From assembly GCF_900095825.1 (NCBI RefSeq), contig NZ_LT608315.1, positions 921,873-985,872 on the forward strand: a stretch of DNA of 64,000 bases, given 5' to 3'. Positions within the stretch are counted from its first letter, which is position 1, and each line of letters opens with the position of its first letter. This DNA comes from Acidaminococcus massiliensis. Lineage in GTDB: Bacteria > Bacillota > Negativicutes > Acidaminococcales > Acidaminococcaceae. Shown here one piece after another: positions 28,125 through 36,760 of the stretch. The position numbers were made by a program, and so were the translations under genes. The notes below the pieces were generated by a model. It was given only the letters and a program-made list of their open reading frames with translations. It was not told the DNA's origin and did not search any database.

Positions 28125-29033
28125 ATGAAGATTTGGAAAATCGTGACGGGGGTGCTGGTATTCAGCCAGATTTCTCTGGGGATGGTCCTGGCGGCAGCAC
28201 CGTCTCTTGATAACATCGTCAAACCTTCCAAGGGCTATGTGTGGCGTCTGGATGCGGCCAACAAACTCCGGCTGCCCCGGTCCTGGCGGGTGGATGCCGC
28301 CAATCGCATGAGCGGCAGCGGCCAGCCTTCCATCCTGAATCTGGCGGCGCTGACCCAGGAACTGCAGAAACAGGGCATCCAGCCCAAACAGGTGATCCTG
28401 GTGGACCTGCGCCAGGAGGACCATGGATACCTGAACGGCGCGGCGGTAAGCTGGTACGGGGACAACAATTGGGCCAATGTGGGGAAATCCGATGCCGCCA
28501 TCCGGCAGGAGGAAGCCCGGCGGCTGGAAAAGGAGGAAAACCGGGAAACATCCTACTACCATCTGGACAAAAAGAAAAAGCCCCATTATAAGGGAACGGA
28601 AAAAGTCCAGACGGCCCTGACGGAACAGCAGGCGGCGGCTCTGTTCGGCCTGGGCTATGCCCGGTTTGCCAGTACGGACCATACCTGGCCGGAACCGGAA
28701 GAAGTGGATGCCTTCCTCCAGTGGCAGAAATCCCTGCCGGGAGATGCCTGGCTCCATTTCCACTGCCAGGCCGGGAAAGGCCGGACCACCGCCTATATGA
28801 TCATGCGGGATATCTGGCTCAACGGGCAGCAGGACAGCCTGGAAACCATCTGTTCCCGGCAGCATGCCCTGGGGGGACAGGATGTGCTCAACATGACCCA
28901 TAAGGAAGGGTGGCGCCAGACCATCGACGACCACAAAATCTACCGGCTGAAGCAGTTCTATACGTATGTAAAAGAACTCCAACAGGGAAAAATCACCCAA
29001 AGCTGGACGGATTATCTGAAAGAGAATCCCTAA
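28125..29033 (+). CDS. Secreted cysteine phosphatase (PTP-like phytase family)
   Basis: A 302-residue exported phosphatase with an N-terminal signal peptide (about 1-25, ending near MVLAAAP). The P-loop HCQAGKGRTT (His213, Cys214, Arg220) is the HCxxGxxRT signature of protein-tyrosine-phosphatase-like inositol polyphosphatases, and closely parallels the HCEAGVGRT of the Selenomonas ruminantium phytase. A WPD-like general acid region reads STDHTWPEPEEVDAF. It probably removes phosphate from inositol phosphates or phosphoproteins in the periplasm or at the surface. Key residues are intact. The length is slightly shorter than the Selenomonas enzyme. Confidence 0.87.
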   Translation: MKIWKIVTGVLVFSQISLGMVLAAAPSLDNIVKPSKGYVWRLDAANKLRLPRSWRVDAANRMSGSGQPSILNLAALTQELQKQGIQPKQVILVDLRQEDHGYLNGAAVSWYGDNNWANVGKSDAAIRQEEARRLEKEENRETSYYHLDKKKKPHYKGTEKVQTALTEQQAAALFGLGYARFASTDHTWPEPEEVDAFLQWQKSLPGDAWLHFHCQAGKGRTTAYMIMRDIWLNGQQDSLETICSRQHALGGQDVLNMTHKEGWRQTIDDHKIYRLKQFYTYVKELQQGKITQSWTDYLKENP

Positions 29034-29184: not shown

Positions 29185-30036
29185 ATGGAACATGTTGTAC
29201 TGAACAATGGGGTTGTCATGCCCCTGGAAGGGTTCGGGGTCTTCCAGATCCCGGATCCGGCGGAATGTGAAGAAGTGACCTGGGGAGCCCTTAAAGCCGG
29301 CTATCGGCTGCTGGATACGGCGGCCGCCTATGGCAATGAAGAAGCGGTGGGCCGTGCCATCCGGAAAAGCGGCATCCCCCGGGAAGAGATTTTTGTCACT
29401 TCCAAACTGTGGGTGCAGGATTACGGCTATGAAAAGGGCAAAGCCGGCCTGGAACAATCCCTGGAAAAACTGGGGCTGGATTATTTGGACCTGTATCTGC
29501 TCCACCAGCCGGTGGGAGATGTGCTGGGATCCTGGAAAGCCCTGGAAGAAGCCTATCAGGATGGAAAAATCCGGGCCATTGGGGTGGCCAACTTCTATCC
29601 GGCTCCCCTGGCGGATTTCTGTGAAACCGTGGAAATCCTGCCGGCGGTGGACCAGGTGGAACTCCATCCCTTCTTTGCCCAGCCCAAAGCCCTGGAAAAC
29701 ATGAAAGCCTATGGGGTGCAGCCCCAGGCCTGGGGACCGCTGGCTGAAGGAAAGCACAATATCTTCACCCATCCGGTGCTGACAGCCATTGGCCAAAAAT
29801 ACGGCAAGACAGCGGCCCAGGTGGCTCTTCGCTGGAATGTCCAGCGGGGGGTGTCCATCATCCCAAAATCCGTCCATTGTGACCGGATCAAACAGAATCT
29901 GGACATCTGGGATTTCCAGCTGACCGAAGAGGATATGGCCCAGATTGGAACCCTGGATCTGGGACACAGCGAAATCGTGGACCACGGGGATCCGGCCTTT
30001 ATCCAGATGCTCCACCATTGGAAGATCCACTCCTGA
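29185..30036 (+). CDS. Aldo/keto reductase
   Basis: A 283-residue NADPH-dependent aldo/keto reductase of the AKR5-type (2,5-diketo-gluconate reductase-like). The catalytic tetrad is seen in LLDTAAAYGNE (Asp and Tyr), VTSKLW (Lys) and LLHQPVGD (His). The C-terminal cofactor segment is SIIPKSVHCDRIKQN. It is a cytoplasmic TIM barrel that reduces aldehydes or ketones. It is preceded by AAAGGAAAGG. A short strong-ribosome-site frame follows, then a LysR gene that may regulate it. Confidence 0.93.
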   Translation: MEHVVLNNGVVMPLEGFGVFQIPDPAECEEVTWGALKAGYRLLDTAAAYGNEEAVGRAIRKSGIPREEIFVTSKLWVQDYGYEKGKAGLEQSLEKLGLDYLDLYLLHQPVGDVLGSWKALEEAYQDGKIRAIGVANFYPAPLADFCETVEILPAVDQVELHPFFAQPKALENMKAYGVQPQAWGPLAEGKHNIFTHPVLTAIGQKYGKTAAQVALRWNVQRGVSIIPKSVHCDRIKQNLDIWDFQLTEEDMAQIGTLDLGHSEIVDHGDPAFIQMLHHWKIHS

Positions 30037-31152: not shown

Positions 31153-31186
31153 AAGGGGCTGCTGCACATGCAACAGCCCCTTTTTT
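31152..31186. terminator. Shared terminator of LysR and alcohol dehydrogenase genes
   Basis: GGGGCTGCTGCA and TGCAACAGCCCC nearly form a perfect stem, with As before and six Ts after, between two convergent genes. Confidence 0.88.
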
Positions 31187-32346
31187 CATTCACACTCCAG
31201 CAGCACCTGGAGCAGTTCTTCTCGGGTGAATTTCTTCGGGCAGCCTCCGGTAAGGATGGTGGTATCTGCTATGGCCTTCAGATCCGTGTCTTCCGGGATG
31301 CCCAGTTCTCGGAAGCTGGTGGGGAGACCGATTTCCTTGATAAAGGCGGTCAGCTGGTCCACAAAGGCACTGGCCAGTTCTTCCTGGGACTTGCCTGCCG
31401 GCTCCACACCCCATACGTTCACGGCCAGCCGGGCAAACTGTCCGGCGGCTTCCGGCAGATAGTGGCGGTACAGCGCCGGATGGAGCACGGCCAGGCCTCT
31501 CCCATGATTGCAGTTGGTGTAAGCCCCCAGCTGGTGTTCCAGCATATGGCACTGGAAGTCTCCAGTCTTGCCAATCTTCAGGATACCGTTTTCTCCCATA
31601 GCAGCCGCCCAGAGCAGTTCGCTGCGGATCTGAGTATCCTGGGGATCCTGGAGGGTCTTCCGGATGTTCCGGATGATGTTCCGCTGACAGGCTTCGTTGA
31701 TCTCATCAGAAAGATTCACCTCCCGGGGAGAACCCAGATAGGTTTCCATACAGTGGCTCAGGGAATCAAAGGCACCGGAAATCACCTGTCCCAGGGGCAT
31801 GGTCAGGGTATAGGACGGATCCAGGATGGCGAAATCATAGAAAGCGCCCCAAAGTGGAGATTTGCTCTTTTTGGCTTCGTGGGTGATCACGGCCCCGTTG
31901 TTCATTTCAGCCCCGGTGCCAAAAGCTGTGACCACAGCCCCCATGGGCAGGAATTTCTCAGGCTGCTGGTGCTGGGCGTATTCATATTCCCAGATGTCTT
32001 CTTCCAGAAGAGCCTGGGCGGAAATGATCTTGCAGCAGTCCAGGACGGATCCGCCGCCTACGGCCAGGATAAAGTCGATTTTCTGTTCCCGGGCCAGACG
32101 GGCGCCTTCCTGGACCTTTTCGTAGGTGGGATTGGACATGATCCCGGAAAAATCGAAGACGGTTTTGCCGGCTTTTTTTAAGAGATCCGTCAGTTCTTCA
32201 TAAACGCCGTTTCGTTTGATGGAACCGCCCCCATAGGCCAGCAGCACATTGGGGCCCACTTTGGCCAGTTCCGCCGGCAGGTTGGCAGGGGCGGCTCCTT
32301 TTCCAAAATAGGTTTTGACAGGGTAGCTGTAAGTAAATGCTTCCAT
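31186..32346 (-). CDS. Iron-containing alcohol dehydrogenase (BdhA/YqhD-like)
   Basis: A 386-residue group III alcohol dehydrogenase that reduces aldehydes with NAD(P)H. The cofactor motif AVGGGSVLDCCKII is at about residues 93-106. Metal ligands are expected in SGAFDSLSHCMETYL and in the EHQLGAYTNCNHGRGLAVLHP block, which has the family histidines. The start is set at the ATG at 32346 (MEAFTYSYPVKTYFG) behind GGAAGGAAG, rather than the longer open frame. It is divergent from a merR gene. Its promoter has a 19-bp spacer containing a CCGG dyad, almost the same as the merR promoter, so it is probably induced by the MerR protein, perhaps by aldehydes. Confidence 0.92.
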   Translation of the reverse strand: MEAFTYSYPVKTYFGKGAAPANLPAELAKVGPNVLLAYGGGSIKRNGVYEELTDLLKKAGKTVFDFSGIMSNPTYEKVQEGARLAREQKIDFILAVGGGSVLDCCKIISAQALLEEDIWEYEYAQHQQPEKFLPMGAVVTAFGTGAEMNNGAVITHEAKKSKSPLWGAFYDFAILDPSYTLTMPLGQVISGAFDSLSHCMETYLGSPREVNLSDEINEACQRNIIRNIRKTLQDPQDTQIRSELLWAAAMGENGILKIGKTGDFQCHMLEHQLGAYTNCNHGRGLAVLHPALYRHYLPEAAGQFARLAVNVWGVEPAGKSQEELASAFVDQLTAFIKEIGLPTSFRELGIPEDTDLKAIADTTILTGGCPKKFTREELLQVLLECE

Positions 32347-32367
32347 GAGAATACTTCCTTCCTTTTG

Positions 32368-32397
32368 ACCGGCAGCAGAACTGCCGGTGTTTTTTTG
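32368..32397. promoter_or_regulatory. CCGGCAG dyad in the alcohol dehydrogenase leader
   Basis: ACCGGCAG and CTGCCGGT around CAGAA, followed on the plus strand by GTTTTTTT. The arms share the CCGG(T/C)A core of the two MerR-type promoters. It may be a third operator in the leader, or a terminator hairpin for plus-strand transcription. Confidence 0.5.
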
Positions 32398-32407
32398 ATT
32401 ATCCTTT

Positions 32408-32438
32408 ACTGTACGCTCCGGCAGCAACTACCGGTCAA
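32408..32438 (-). promoter_or_regulatory. MerR-type promoter of the alcohol dehydrogenase gene
   Basis: On the minus strand TTGACC is followed by a 19-bp spacer and TACAGT. The spacer contains CCGGTA...GCCGG, a dyad matching the merR promoter. A 19-bp spacer is the hallmark of promoters that MerR proteins activate by DNA distortion. Confidence 0.75.
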
Positions 32439-32622
32439 GGACTTTTTTGAGAAATACCAGGACTTTTTTCTGGTGAGAACCCAAAGGCTTCTGCCCGTTA
32501 AACAGAGGAAAACTTCTGGAAATCCAGGATTTCCGTATAATGGAAACTGCGTTGGGGTGATGCTCCCCGGCTTTCCGGATCGATTACTGAAATCGGGGAC
32601 AGGGAAAAAATAAAAAAAGCTC

Positions 32623-32653
32623 TTGACCGGTAGTACATACCGGATGGTACATT
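32623..32653 (+). promoter_or_regulatory. MerR-type promoter of the merR operon
   Basis: TTGACC, a 19-bp spacer and TACATT. The spacer holds the perfect arms CCGGTA and TACCGG around GTACA. The first eleven bases are identical to the alcohol dehydrogenase promoter. Confidence 0.78.
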
Positions 32654-32714: not shown

Positions 32715-33128
32715 ATGTATACCATGAAACAGGCCTGTGAAGCTACGGGTCTTCCTTATGAAACCCTGAAATTCTACTGCAATGAGGGACTGATCCCCCA
32801 TGTGAAACGGGACCGGCTGAACCGGCGGATCTTCAGCGAACACGATGTGGCCTGGATCAAAAGCCTGAAATGTCTGAAGGGCTGCGGACTCAGCATCCAG
32901 GAAATGCGGGAGTATCTGCAAATGTGCCTCCAGGGACCGGCATCCATTCCCAAACGGAAAAAAATGCTGAAGGAAAAAAGAAAAAATCTGGAGGAAAAGA
33001 TCCAGGAAATCCAGGAATCCATTGCCTACATTGACTGGAAAGAAACGTTCTATGATGATGTGCTGTCGGGGAAAAAGCCCTATGTAAGCAACCTGCTGCC
33101 GGAATATGCAGAGGACAGTGAAAAATAA
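32715..33128 (+). CDS. MerR-family regulator (AdhR/NmlR-like)
   Basis: A 137-residue MerR regulator. The N-terminal winged helix (MYTMKQACEATGLPYETLKFYCNEGLI) is followed by the second HTH region and a C-terminal dimerisation coiled coil (about 85-110, KRKKMLKEKRKNLEEKIQEI). Cysteines at 53, 57 and 71 include one near the position of the redox- or aldehyde-sensing cysteine of AdhR-type proteins. Two promoters with 19-bp spacers and a shared dyad, one for this operon and one for the divergent alcohol dehydrogenase, point to a local regulon. The effector may be an aldehyde or electrophile, by analogy. Confidence 0.9.
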   Translation: MYTMKQACEATGLPYETLKFYCNEGLIPHVKRDRLNRRIFSEHDVAWIKSLKCLKGCGLSIQEMREYLQMCLQGPASIPKRKKMLKEKRKNLEEKIQEIQESIAYIDWKETFYDDVLSGKKPYVSNLLPEYAEDSEK

Positions 33129-33155: not shown

Positions 33156-34232
33156 ATGTTCTTCAGAAAGAAAATGGTGTTGACGGCTTTGCTGGCCATG
33201 GCTCTGGGGGTAACATCCCTGGCTTCTGCGGCTGCGGTGGACTGACCGGCGCCCAATCCCTACGGACTGGTGTACCGGGGAGCCGTTACGAAAAATGAAG
33301 CGGGTAAGGTGAACATCCATCCTGTCCATTACAACCTGAATGGGAACCAGATTGCGGCCAATGTGTATACCCAGGCCGGTTATACCAAAGACGGGAAGTA
33401 CGCAGCCATCGTGGTGGCCCATCCCAACGGGGGCGTGAAGGAACAGGTAGCCGGACTGTACGCCCAGCGGCTGGCGGAAAACGGGTATGTGACCATTGCT
33501 GCGGACGCTACCTTCCAGGGGGCTTCCGGCGGGGAACCCCGGCACAAGGATGTGCCTTACTTTCGGACGGAAGACATCCATGGTATGGTGGACTTCATTT
33601 CCCAGTATCCCGGAGTGGATAAGACCCAGATTGGGGCCCTGGGCATCTGCGGCGGAGGCGGTTACACCCTGAATGCGGCCAAATCGGACAAACGGATGAA
33701 GGCTGTGGCCACCATCAGCATGTTCAACAGCGGCCGGGTCCGCCGGGAAGGGTTCTTGGACGGCCAGAAGGATACGGTGCAGCAGCGTCTGAAGGCGGCT
33801 TCCGATGCCCGGCAGACCGCTTTGGAAACCGGGAAGGAACCCATTTCCGGCCATCTGGACTTTGATTCCATTACGGAAGAAAGCCTGAAGAAGATTCCCA
33901 CGGACCTGTATCGGGAAGGGATGGTCTATTATGGACAGACCCACCGCCACCCCAATTCCACTTTTGACTATACCACCAGCAGCCTGACGGAACTGATGGC
34001 CTGGGATGCCACCGATCAGATCGACCTGATCAACGTGCCCCTGCTGATGATTGCCGGCAGCAAAGCGGACACCTTGTACATGACCCAGGATGCCTTCCAG
34101 AAAGCCACCGGGACCCAGGACAAGGAACTGTTTGAAATCCCTGGAGCCACCCACATCCAGACCTATTATGTGCCCAGCTATGTGAACCAGGCTGTCAACA
34201 AACTGGTGGGCTTCTATGGACGGACTCTCTGA
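33156..34232 (+). pseudogene. Secreted alpha/beta hydrolase with in-frame TGA after the signal peptide
   Basis: The frame starts at ATG 33156 behind AAAGGAGG and encodes a perfect signal peptide of about 27 residues (MFFRKKMVLTALLAMALG... ending SAAAVD). It then meets TGA at codon 30 (33243-33245). The same frame continues for 329 codons as an alpha/beta hydrolase of the dienelactone-hydrolase type, with the nucleophile elbow ALGICGGGGY (cysteine at the nucleophile position), an aspartate in AGSKADTLY and a histidine in PGATHIQTYY. A nonsense mutation is the simplest reading. Internal restart at GTG 33270 would make a cytoplasmic protein. The gene lies in the merR operon. Confidence 0.65.
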
Positions 34233-34262: not shown

Positions 34263-35258
34263 ATGAGAAAGTTTTTTTTCGGGATGTTCCTGGCCATAGG
34301 GCTGCTGACCTTTGCTGGAGGGTGTCTGGGCAGTGCAGCTGCCCGGGAACTGCCGGTCCCTCCTGAATCGGCTCAGGTGGAGCAGGCCCTGAGAGGGGTA
34401 CCGGGAGCTATCTTCCCAGTCGGGAATTACAATGCCGCCAACAAGGACCATTTTACCGGTCCCAGTTATGCAGCGGCTCTGACTGCCAGCACCCTGGACG
34501 GATACAGCCGGGCAGAGGAGGCCCGGAAGACTTACGCCCAGATGATGGGCAAACAGGCAATGGGACTGGAAAAGACGGACCCGGAATTGGATGGCCTGAT
34601 GAAGAAATACATTTACGGGGACATTGCCCGGCAGGCCAAACTATCCTCCCGGGATCAGCATCTGATCACCCTGGCGGTGCTGGTGACCCAGCAGAACCAG
34701 AGCCTTTTGGGAAAAAATGTCCAGGGGGCCCTCCAGGATGGGGTGAAGCCCATTGAAATCCGGGAAACATTGTATCAGCTGGCTCCCTACATCGGCTTCG
34801 GCCGAGTAGCGGATGCCATGGAAACGGTGAACGGGGTGTTTCGGAAGAATGGAGTGGCCCTGCCTCTCCCAGCCGATGGGACCACCACCGATGCTGACCG
34901 GTTCGAAAAAGGGCTGGCTTTCCAGGTGGGGACCTATGGGGAACGGATCAACCAGATGCGGGCGAATACCCCGGAAGAGCAGAAGCACCTTCAAGATGAC
35001 TTGTCTGCTTTCTGCTTCGGAGATATCTATACTCGGAAGAACTTGGATCTGAAGACCCGGGAAATGATCACCGTGGCGGCCATAGGCACCATGGGTACTG
35101 GGGAACCCCAGTTCACTTCTCACGTGAGAGGTCTCTTGGCTGCCGGAGCTACCCGCGAAGAAGCCATCGGCGTCATTACAGTGATGAATCCCTATATCGG
35201 ATTTCCCCGGACCCTGAACTGTCTGAAGAATGCCAATGGGGTGTTTAGTGGTAAATAA
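34263..35258 (+). CDS. Exported protein with two carboxymuconolactone decarboxylase-like domains
   Basis: This 331-residue protein has an N-terminal signal sequence (about 1-27; a cysteine at 21 might serve as a lipobox, but AGGC is imperfect). Two AhpD/CMD-like domains follow, the first at about 95-185 (SSRDQHLITLAVLVTQ) and the second at about 225-325 (DLKTREMITVAAIGTMG, then THVRGLL-type helix). The CxxC of peroxidase-type AhpD proteins is absent. The activity is unknown, perhaps a decarboxylase or isomerase. It is the last gene of the merR operon. Its terminator is split by an IS element. Confidence 0.83.
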   Translation: MRKFFFGMFLAIGLLTFAGGCLGSAAARELPVPPESAQVEQALRGVPGAIFPVGNYNAANKDHFTGPSYAAALTASTLDGYSRAEEARKTYAQMMGKQAMGLEKTDPELDGLMKKYIYGDIARQAKLSSRDQHLITLAVLVTQQNQSLLGKNVQGALQDGVKPIEIRETLYQLAPYIGFGRVADAMETVNGVFRKNGVALPLPADGTTTDADRFEKGLAFQVGTYGERINQMRANTPEEQKHLQDDLSAFCFGDIYTRKNLDLKTREMITVAAIGTMGTGEPQFTSHVRGLLAAGATREEAIGVITVMNPYIGFPRTLNCLKNANGVFSGK

Positions 35259-35339: not shown

Positions 35340-36185
35340 TTATGCTGCCAGCAAAGAAAGCCTGTATTGAACAGGACTTTTCCAGCCCAGTTTTTCCTTG
35401 ATCCTTTGTTCGTTATAGTATTTGATGTATCGTTCGATAGCGGCTCTTAGTTCTTCGTAGCTGTAGTAGATCACTCCATAATACATTTCCTGTTTCATTA
35501 AGCCGAAAAAGTTTTCCATTACAGCGTTATCATGACAGTTACCCTTTCGAGACATGCTCTGAAAAATTCGTTCTTTTTTTAGTTTCCTGGTATAGGCCTT
35601 CATTTGGTATGCCCAGCCCTGATCGGAGTGAAACGTTCTTCGATATGGACAATCAGCAGTAATTTCGATTGCTTCAGCTTGAGCTTCCAGTATGCTTTCA
35701 GCCGAAGGACGTTTGGCTATTCCATAGCTGATGATTTCATCATCGAACATGTCCAGGAAAGGATCCAGATAAAGCTTGTGCAGGGTCAGATGTCCCTGTG
35801 TATCTACTTCATAATATTTGAATTCTGAAGTATCGGTCGTAATCTTCTGATGTGGGATATTCGTCTCAAAACGACGATGTATTCTATTCGGAGCAATGGT
35901 CCCTACCTTACCCTTATAGGAACTGTATTTACGGCTTTTCCGGGTAAAGGATGTTACCTGAAGGCTCAGTTTCTGCATGATACGTTGAACTTTCTTCTTG
36001 TTCACGCAAATCCCTTGATTCTTCAGCTCACCGGTCATGCGCCGATATCCATAATCTTTATGCTGGCTGCGGATTTCCTGTATTTTGTCCTCTACTTCCT
36101 GGTCTGGATTCACGCGGTCAAACCGTTTCTGCCAGTACATATAGGTCGCTTTGGGCATTTGAGTATAGGAGAGAAGGTCTTTCAA
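35340..36185 (-). CDS. IS3-family transposase OrfB (DDE integrase)
   Basis: A 281-residue catalytic transposase protein with the rve integrase fold. The DDE residues are seen in TTDTSEFKYY (first Asp), FHSDQGWAYQ (second Asp) and NAVMENFFGLMKQE (Glu), together with the family motif SRKGNCHDNA. The frame begins with TTG at 36185 and overlaps orfA by 4 bp, so it is made by translational coupling or as an OrfAB fusion by frameshifting; no obvious A-rich slippery heptamer is seen at the overlap. It appears full length, so the element may be active. Confidence 0.92.
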   Translation of the reverse strand: MKDLLSYTQMPKATYMYWQKRFDRVNPDQEVEDKIQEIRSQHKDYGYRRMTGELKNQGICVNKKKVQRIMQKLSLQVTSFTRKSRKYSSYKGKVGTIAPNRIHRRFETNIPHQKITTDTSEFKYYEVDTQGHLTLHKLYLDPFLDMFDDEIISYGIAKRPSAESILEAQAEAIEITADCPYRRTFHSDQGWAYQMKAYTRKLKKERIFQSMSRKGNCHDNAVMENFFGLMKQEMYYGVIYYSYEELRAAIERYIKYYNEQRIKEKLGWKSPVQYRLSLLAA

Positions 36186-36760
36186 TTTGAATGATCTTCG
36201 GAGACTGGAGATGATTTTCGCAACTCTCTCATTTTTGCTTCGTCCTCTAAACGCAGTCTCCTCAGTTCTTTTAAAAAAGCATTCTCTATACGGAGTTTAA
36301 GATTTTCATCCTCTAACTCCTTGACATGTTCCACACTGATGTCGACCATCGGCTGCTGAACCTGGGTATCTGTTTTTTTGGTTTGAGATTTGTTCAAAGT
36401 TCTCTTCCTGCCTTTTTTATGTGACCGTAAAGCATCTGGTCCCGCAATTCTAAATTCATTGACCCATCTGGCAATCATTGATGGGTTGTTGATCCCTACT
36501 TGAATTGCTAGTTCCTGATATGAGATTTCATTTGTTAAGTAAGACTCTACCACAGAAAGTTTTTCTTTGAAAGAGTATATTTTTTGAGAGCGGGATCTTT
36601 TCAGTCCATCATCACCAAATGCCTTGTAAGCAGCAACCCACTTTAGCAGCTGGCTGCTACTTGCCATCCCATATTTACGTGAAATAGAAATACACCCTTC
36701 GTCACTGTTCAAATATTCCAGTACTATTTTTTTCTTAAATTCATAGCTGTGTTTTGCCAT
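36182..36760 (-). CDS. IS3-family transposase OrfA (helix-turn-helix)
   Basis: A 192-residue DNA-binding protein of the IS150-type OrfA class. Two helix-turn-helix units are visible, at about residues 8-50 (KKIVLEYLNSDEGCISISRKYG) and about 65-115 (SYQELAIQVGINNPSMIARWVNEF). A coiled-coil/leucine-zipper region near the C-terminus (about 145-180, VKELEDENLKLRIENAFLKEL) would mediate OrfA/OrfAB contacts. It binds the terminal inverted repeats. The frame is intact, and its start lies 55 bp inside the right end of the element. Confidence 0.9.
   Translation of the reverse strand: MAKHSYEFKKKIVLEYLNSDEGCISISRKYGMASSSQLLKWVAAYKAFGDDGLKRSRSQKIYSFKEKLSVVESYLTNEISYQELAIQVGINNPSMIARWVNEFRIAGPDALRSHKKGRKRTLNKSQTKKTDTQVQQPMVDISVEHVKELEDENLKLRIENAFLKELRRLRLEDEAKMRELRKSSPVSEDHSN

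Follow-up and report, generated by a model that had tools for sequence, protein, structure and literature searches.

A MerR-type regulon with two 19-bp-spacer operator-promoters predicted by sequence comparison in Acidaminococcus massiliensis

Two closely similar promoter-like sequences lie between a gene for an iron-containing alcohol dehydrogenase (Fe-ADH) and an oppositely oriented merR gene in Acidaminococcus massiliensis. They raise the question of whether a single regulator acts on both and, if so, to what signal it responds. The window analyzed is a 64,000-nt stretch (positions 921,873–985,872 of contig NZ_LT608315.1). The Fe-ADH gene (positions 31186–32346, minus strand) encodes 386 aa (Pfam Fe-ADH, 138 bits); it is YqhD-like by best NCBIfam model, with 238 bits against PRK15138, which is under the model cut-off of 645. 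The merR gene (positions 32715–33128, plus strand) encodes a 137 aa MerR-family regulator (Pfam MerR_1, 58.5 bits) with cysteines at positions 8, 22, 53, 57 and 71. It is followed on the same strand by a gene for a dienelactone-hydrolase-like alpha/beta hydrolase with a signal-peptide-like start (positions 33156–34232; DLH and Hydrolase_4) and by the gene for a CMD-family protein of 331 aa (positions 34263–35258; Pfam CMD, 106 bits). The latter protein has two CMD stretches and, judged by eye from the sequence, an N-terminal signal-like segment. The gaps are 27 bases (merR to hydrolase) and 30 bases (hydrolase to CMD), a window scan gave no terminator-like matches within either gap, and the three genes likely constitute one operon. 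Directly downstream of the CMD gene is a two-gene insertion element (positions 35340–36760, minus strand) which codes for integrase-core and HTH transposase proteins and is probably IS3-like. The product of positions 28125–29033 is a PTP-like phytase (Pfam PTPlike_phytase) that appears to have a signal peptide.

Both promoters are of one design: TTGACC, a CCGGTAG-N3-CTACCGG-like dyad, and TACANT at exactly 19 bp. The one that faces the Fe-ADH gene (positions 32408–32438, minus strand) has the -35 element TTGACC at 32438–32433, the 19-bp spacer GGTAGTTGCTGCCGGAGCG with the dyad CCGGTAGttgCTGCCGG, and the -10 element TACAGT at 32413–32408. The one that faces merR, hydrolase and CMD (positions 32623–32653, plus strand) reads TTGACC, the 19-bp spacer GGTAGTACATACCGGATGG with the dyad CCGGTAgtacaTACCGG, and TACATT. 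The distance from the last base of the -10 to the start codon is 62 bases at both. The full pattern of dyad and -10 is found at these two sites in the window with 0 mismatches each, compared with a shuffle mean of 0.03 with up to 3 mismatches, and this confirms the initial annotation, which had described two near-identical 19-bp-spacer promoters facing the alcohol dehydrogenase and merR. The shorter TTGACCGGYAG occurs three times without mismatch (32365 plus, 32438 minus and 32623 plus); with up to 1 mismatch there are seven matches in the window versus a shuffle mean of 1.55, and none of 100 shuffles reaches seven. A matrix built from relatives alone (35 unique sites) gives 35.6 bits for the minus-strand site and 32.9 bits for the plus-strand site. 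The next-best position in the 64-kb window scores 4.1 bits, and the maximum in 20 simulated windows is 8.1 bits. A genome-wide search, which the same annotation had proposed, returns no sites but the two in the window when a relaxed consensus is allowed up to 2 mismatches; the full pattern, allowed up to 3, has seven matches, the two window sites with 0 mismatches and five others with 3 each. A palindrome within an over-long spacer of 19–20 bp is characteristic of promoters of the MerR family, and both window sites display it; a MerR protein probably binds them.

The spacer is conserved in relatives. Orthologues of the MerR protein with 52–70% identity (higher for two 46-residue fragments) are present in Blautia, Robinsoniella, Clostridium, Bifidobacterium, a Coriobacteriaceae bacterium and others, and in five of the eight other genomes of the genus. 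Thirty orthologue loci were compared, 18 of 19 from one homologue set (L026, with 31% identity, was dropped) and the 12 of 17 in another set that hold merR. These loci contain 42 dyads whose -35 matches TTGAC in 4 or all 5 letters, and TAnnnT is present at exactly 19 bp in 37 of them, four of which are not independent as the boundaries of L105 and L106 were set after pattern matches had been seen. All other spacer lengths from 14 to 25 together give 10 matches among the 42. The five dyads without a -10 at 19 bp (L016, L020, two in L096, and L110) look like background. Six loci have no strict match. Of these, L012 (22.7 bits) and L110 (32.9 bits) each have a 19-bp site that has diverged, and L103 and L109 have no site near merR, with sites elsewhere in their genomes (G043 and G354). 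In the other two, L020 and L112, the dyad has moved by one base and the spacer is still 19 bp, which shows that spacer length is maintained and not sequence alone. None of 22 loci of distant homologues has a site of at least 20 bits. The best places in three of them (L046, L047 and L054) combine TTGAC with a dyad of the GAG...ACTC type and with TAnnnT at 19 bp; a shared architecture with different half-sites is at most hinted at here, because the matrix itself fixes the spacer length. In four genomes of relatives (G001, G002, G003 and G005), TTGACA replaces TTGACC in 14 of 18 sites, where a better -35 is set against the outer operator base.

The regulator has the N-terminal winged-helix domain of the family (MerR_1, 7.3e-16; MerR-DNA-bind, 1.6e-8), and no effector domain was found in its 137 aa. 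Cysteines 8, 22, 53 and 57 are present in all 29 aligned proteins, the window protein and 28 orthologues, and Cys71 in 28 of the 29. The candidate sensor cysteines pointed out at the outset are thus real as conserved residues in the case of these four positions. Among 22 distant homologues, positions 8, 22, 53, 57 and 71 are cysteine in 0, 0, 19, 1 and 6, respectively. Cys22 is presumably located in the DNA-recognition helix. In a phylogenetic tree the 29 four-cysteine proteins are on one side of a branch with support of 100/99, and the Haemophilus NmlR, on a long branch, is on the opposite side together with 21 distant homologues (the short match L044, counted among the 22, was left out of the tree). 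The NCBIfam NmlR equivalog model gives 78 bits for the window protein, under its cut-off of 175; this cut-off is a narrow one, since none of 14 control genomes, B. subtilis among them, passes it.

The closest known systems are NmlR and AdhR. MerR promoters are described as typically having a spacer of 19–20 bp and as being used poorly before the DNA is kinked and untwisted by the regulator (PMC9909328), and NmlR/AdhR proteins as responding to formaldehyde or methylglyoxal, with mutants in the matching cysteine losing the formaldehyde response (PMC4776306). NmlR of Haemophilus influenzae (HI_0186, PDB 5e01) is likewise a short MerR protein, and the cysteine of its chain aligns with Cys53 of the window protein (5d8c and 5d90 give an identical alignment); this is the cysteine conserved in the NmlR/AdhR group (Cys54 in Haemophilus, Cys52 in Bacillus). 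MerR-type DNA distortion, an alcohol dehydrogenase target and a formaldehyde response are given as features of NmlR in PMC9909328 and PMC4776306. NmlR differs in its place in the tree, across the 100/99 branch from the four-cysteine clade, in carrying Ala, Asp and Thr at the positions of Cys8, Cys22 and Cys57, and in its targets, which are adhC and estD compared with Fe-ADH, hydrolase and CMD in the window. AdhR (YraB) of Bacillus subtilis, as described in PMC4776306 and PMC11577753, is a MerR activator that needs Cys52, answers formaldehyde or methylglyoxal, and controls an alcohol dehydrogenase and the CMD-family gene yraC, which it upregulates (PMC4776306). Its targets include AdhA (thiol-dependent) and YraA, in contrast to the Fe-ADH here; this comparison with AdhR is by description. 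The enzyme linked to the window merR is Fe-ADH (PF00465) and not an AdhC-type alcohol dehydrogenase. The formaldehyde sensor HxlR of B. subtilis has Cys11 and Lys13 linked within a helix (PMC7835342), and the spacing of Cys53-Leu-Lys55 in the window protein is the same. However, HxlR belongs to the MarR/DUF24 family, and a shared mechanism is speculation in that the families differ and Lys55 is Arg in 3 of the 29 proteins.

Taken with these systems, the window regulator is very probably a MerR activator that resembles NmlR/AdhR, senses through thiols and controls a regulon against carbonyl/electrophile stress. Its dimer would bind the dyad between the -35 and -10 at both promoters, where in the absence of a signal the 19-bp spacer would hold both promoters weak. 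Reactive aldehydes or other electrophiles would modify its cysteines, above all Cys53, which corresponds to the sensor cysteine of NmlR/AdhR. The modified dimer would then kink and untwist the spacer such that RNA polymerase could use both elements. On one side the expression of Fe-ADH would be raised, and it would reduce aldehydes to alcohols. On the other side merR itself would be raised in a positive autoregulation, together with CMD and what remains of the hydrolase gene. Read most simply, this would be a self-amplifying switch that electrophiles turn on and that serves carbonyl reduction; its weakest step is the inducer, deduced from enzyme types alone.

The genes directly after the sites in relatives bear on this step. 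They encode Fe-ADH, three kinds of aldo/keto reductase, a short-chain dehydrogenase, an FMN reductase, a Mem_trans transporter, a DUF362 protein and a ferredoxin/flavodoxin-like protein (presumably EFR1; Pfam shows the 4Fe-4S part), as well as an exported DLH-like hydrolase, an exported CMD and another alpha/beta hydrolase whose start is signal-like. Ten of these downstream genes were checked with Pfam, and the rest are named by similarity to window proteins or by eye. In the window itself a DkgA-like aldo/keto reductase (positions 29185–30036) is without an operator, and its family carries one in relatives. It is possible, if somewhat doubtful, that MerR binds the sites and responds to disulfide or oxygen stress, quinones or a thiophilic metal instead, with the reductases following from that. 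The four invariant cysteines, with positions 8 and 22 lacking cysteine in all the distant homologues compared, would suit such a signal, as would the ferredoxin/flavodoxin-like and FMN-reductase genes in the case of redox or quinone stress, and gonococcal NmlR has been linked to thiol/disulfide stress (PMC4776306). Against this is the recurrence of carbonyl reductases (Fe-ADH, aldo/keto reductase and short-chain dehydrogenase) downstream of the sites and, for a thiophilic metal, the fact that no metal-efflux gene was seen among the listed genes directly after sites, mostly named by eye.

The assignment of the sites to this MerR protein is supported by co-occurrence in three samples. In the genus, sites are found in all six genomes with a MerR orthologue and in none of the three without (p 0.012); G008, with a distant homologue only (29%), was taken as negative. 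In a phylum sample of 398 genomes, sites with up to 2 mismatches are present in 6 of 8 MerR-positive and 6 of 390 negative genomes (Fisher p 5e-9), and with up to 1 mismatch in 4 of 8 and 0 of 390 (Fisher p 7e-8). The negatives here include G368, a ninth match with 42% identity and E 4e-33; counted as positive it gives 6 of 9 versus 6 of 389 (p 1.4e-8). The six matches in negative genomes fit background, since they have 2 mismatches each and a reversed control pattern matched five genomes. The two positive genomes that were missed have a diverged 19-bp site (G126, locus L110) and a shifted site (G404, locus L112). In a second family of 121 genomes, sites are present in 13 of 20 MerR-positive and 4 of 101 negative genomes (p 1.5e-9), or 12 of 20 without the background-like match in G475 (p 1.5e-8). 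Against the assignment, a site with at most 2 mismatches is lacking in seven of the 20; three of these seven (L139–L141) were inspected near merR and showed none there either. The samples overlap in part: genus and phylum both include G000, and phylum and second family both include G051 and G202.

Sites conserved without merR, which the initial annotation had named as an observation that would refute its proposal, are uncommon in the 121-genome family. Two genomes of one genus (G527 and G534) have clear sites and a third (G495) has a possible site with 2 mismatches, all with no MerR homologue at E ≤ 0.001. In G477 the site is beside about the first 34 residues of merR, followed by unrelated sequence near the contig end. 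In G527, G534 and G477 the sites precede a DUF362-type protein whose start is twin-arginine-like (loci L135, L136 and L142, named by Pfam for L135 and by eye for the other two). That the dyads are operators of another regulator, with MerR a mere neighbor, is very unlikely: the clear sites in G527 and G534 and the distance of some sites from merR speak for it, but it is opposed by the co-occurrence in all three samples, including the genus genomes that lack the orthologue, and by a spacer length typical of MerR promoters. Ordinary sigma-70 promoters with a chance likeness, or the duplication of one promoter, would account for two mutually similar sites in one intergenic region, but hardly for a dyad and 19-bp spacer maintained in other families as well as in two Actinomycetota (L021 and L022), nor for the fact that a generic promoter scan with 16–18 bp spacers lists neither site, and these explanations can be set aside as highly improbable. 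The comparison thus strongly supports the proposal that the two promoters define a MerR regulon, on the co-occurrence and on the 19-bp spacing in most of the TTGAC-dyads of relatives, as far as sequence can predict it.

A third dyad had been noted in the Fe-ADH leader. It is present (positions 32365–32388, plus strand, TTGACCGGCAG-cagaa-CTGCCGGT), and it is not operator-like. The dyad at 32368–32388 is of the form 7-5-7, with a center of 5 bases and not 3; there is no TAnnnT at +19, and the matrix score is -9.5. When exact TTGAC with a dyad of up to 3 mismatches is counted in the 30 relative loci, a center of 3 is found in 35 cases and a center of 5 in none; centers of 0, 6 and 7 give 6, 2 and 8, and no other length from 0 to 9 occurs. 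A third operator is ruled out on these grounds. The sequence forms a stable hairpin in the predicted Fe-ADH leader, with a fold z of -3.5 for the RNA, and is terminator-like on the other strand, with seven consecutive T on the 3' side of the plus strand. It may represent a degenerate copy of the operator with two bases added centrally. No comparable hairpin is seen in the Fe-ADH leader of L096, from a genome with a MerR sister to that of the window in the tree and an Fe-ADH with 83% identity.

The hydrolase gene is interrupted in this genome. The reading frame from 33156 has 29 codons with the signal-like start and is ended by TGA at 33243–33245; the next listed start is GTG at 33270. A plain exported hydrolase is ruled out by the gene as read, where the TGA directly follows the signal peptide. 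This region is open in all seven relatives compared, and six of the seven have a signal-like N-terminus (the start of L112 differs). The TGA may reflect a pseudogene, a sequencing error, read-through or reinitiation at GTG 33270. Selenocysteine is unlikely, since no cysteine was seen at the TGA position in the relatives compared. The hydrolase and CMD genes are each under their own site in three genomes of the genus (G001, G002 and G003), which suggests that they are likely regulon members themselves and not passengers of merR. The view that exported hydrolase and CMD proteins make this regulon unusual needs to be modified, in that the hydrolase is cut by the TGA here and both genes are common to relatives.

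The principle of the MerR switch is already known. The sites, their spacer, the co-occurrence with merR, the conserved cysteines and the target families are computational observations, and neither the four-cysteine subfamily nor its operator nor its regulon of Fe-ADH, aldo/keto reductase, hydrolase and CMD is described among the matches listed in the open-licence literature or in the portions available of PMC5045206, PMC9909328, PMC4776306, PMC3146418, PMC3616900, PMC11577753 and PMC7835342; an earlier account may exist elsewhere. A bolder and less probable proposal is that these proteins represent a separate MerR subfamily, found in Bacillota and two Actinomycetota, with thiols of its own (Cys8, Cys22 and Cys53-X3-Cys57), which may sense electrophiles directly at the DNA-binding domain and may couple cytosolic carbonyl reductases with an exported hydrolase and CMD. 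If so, reactive carbonyl or aromatic compounds would be treated both outside and inside the membrane. A cysteine-rich MerR regulator gains a list of targets and a precise predicted operator, by which the targets in further genomes may be annotated, and a direct test with one protein, two promoters and named cysteines becomes possible.
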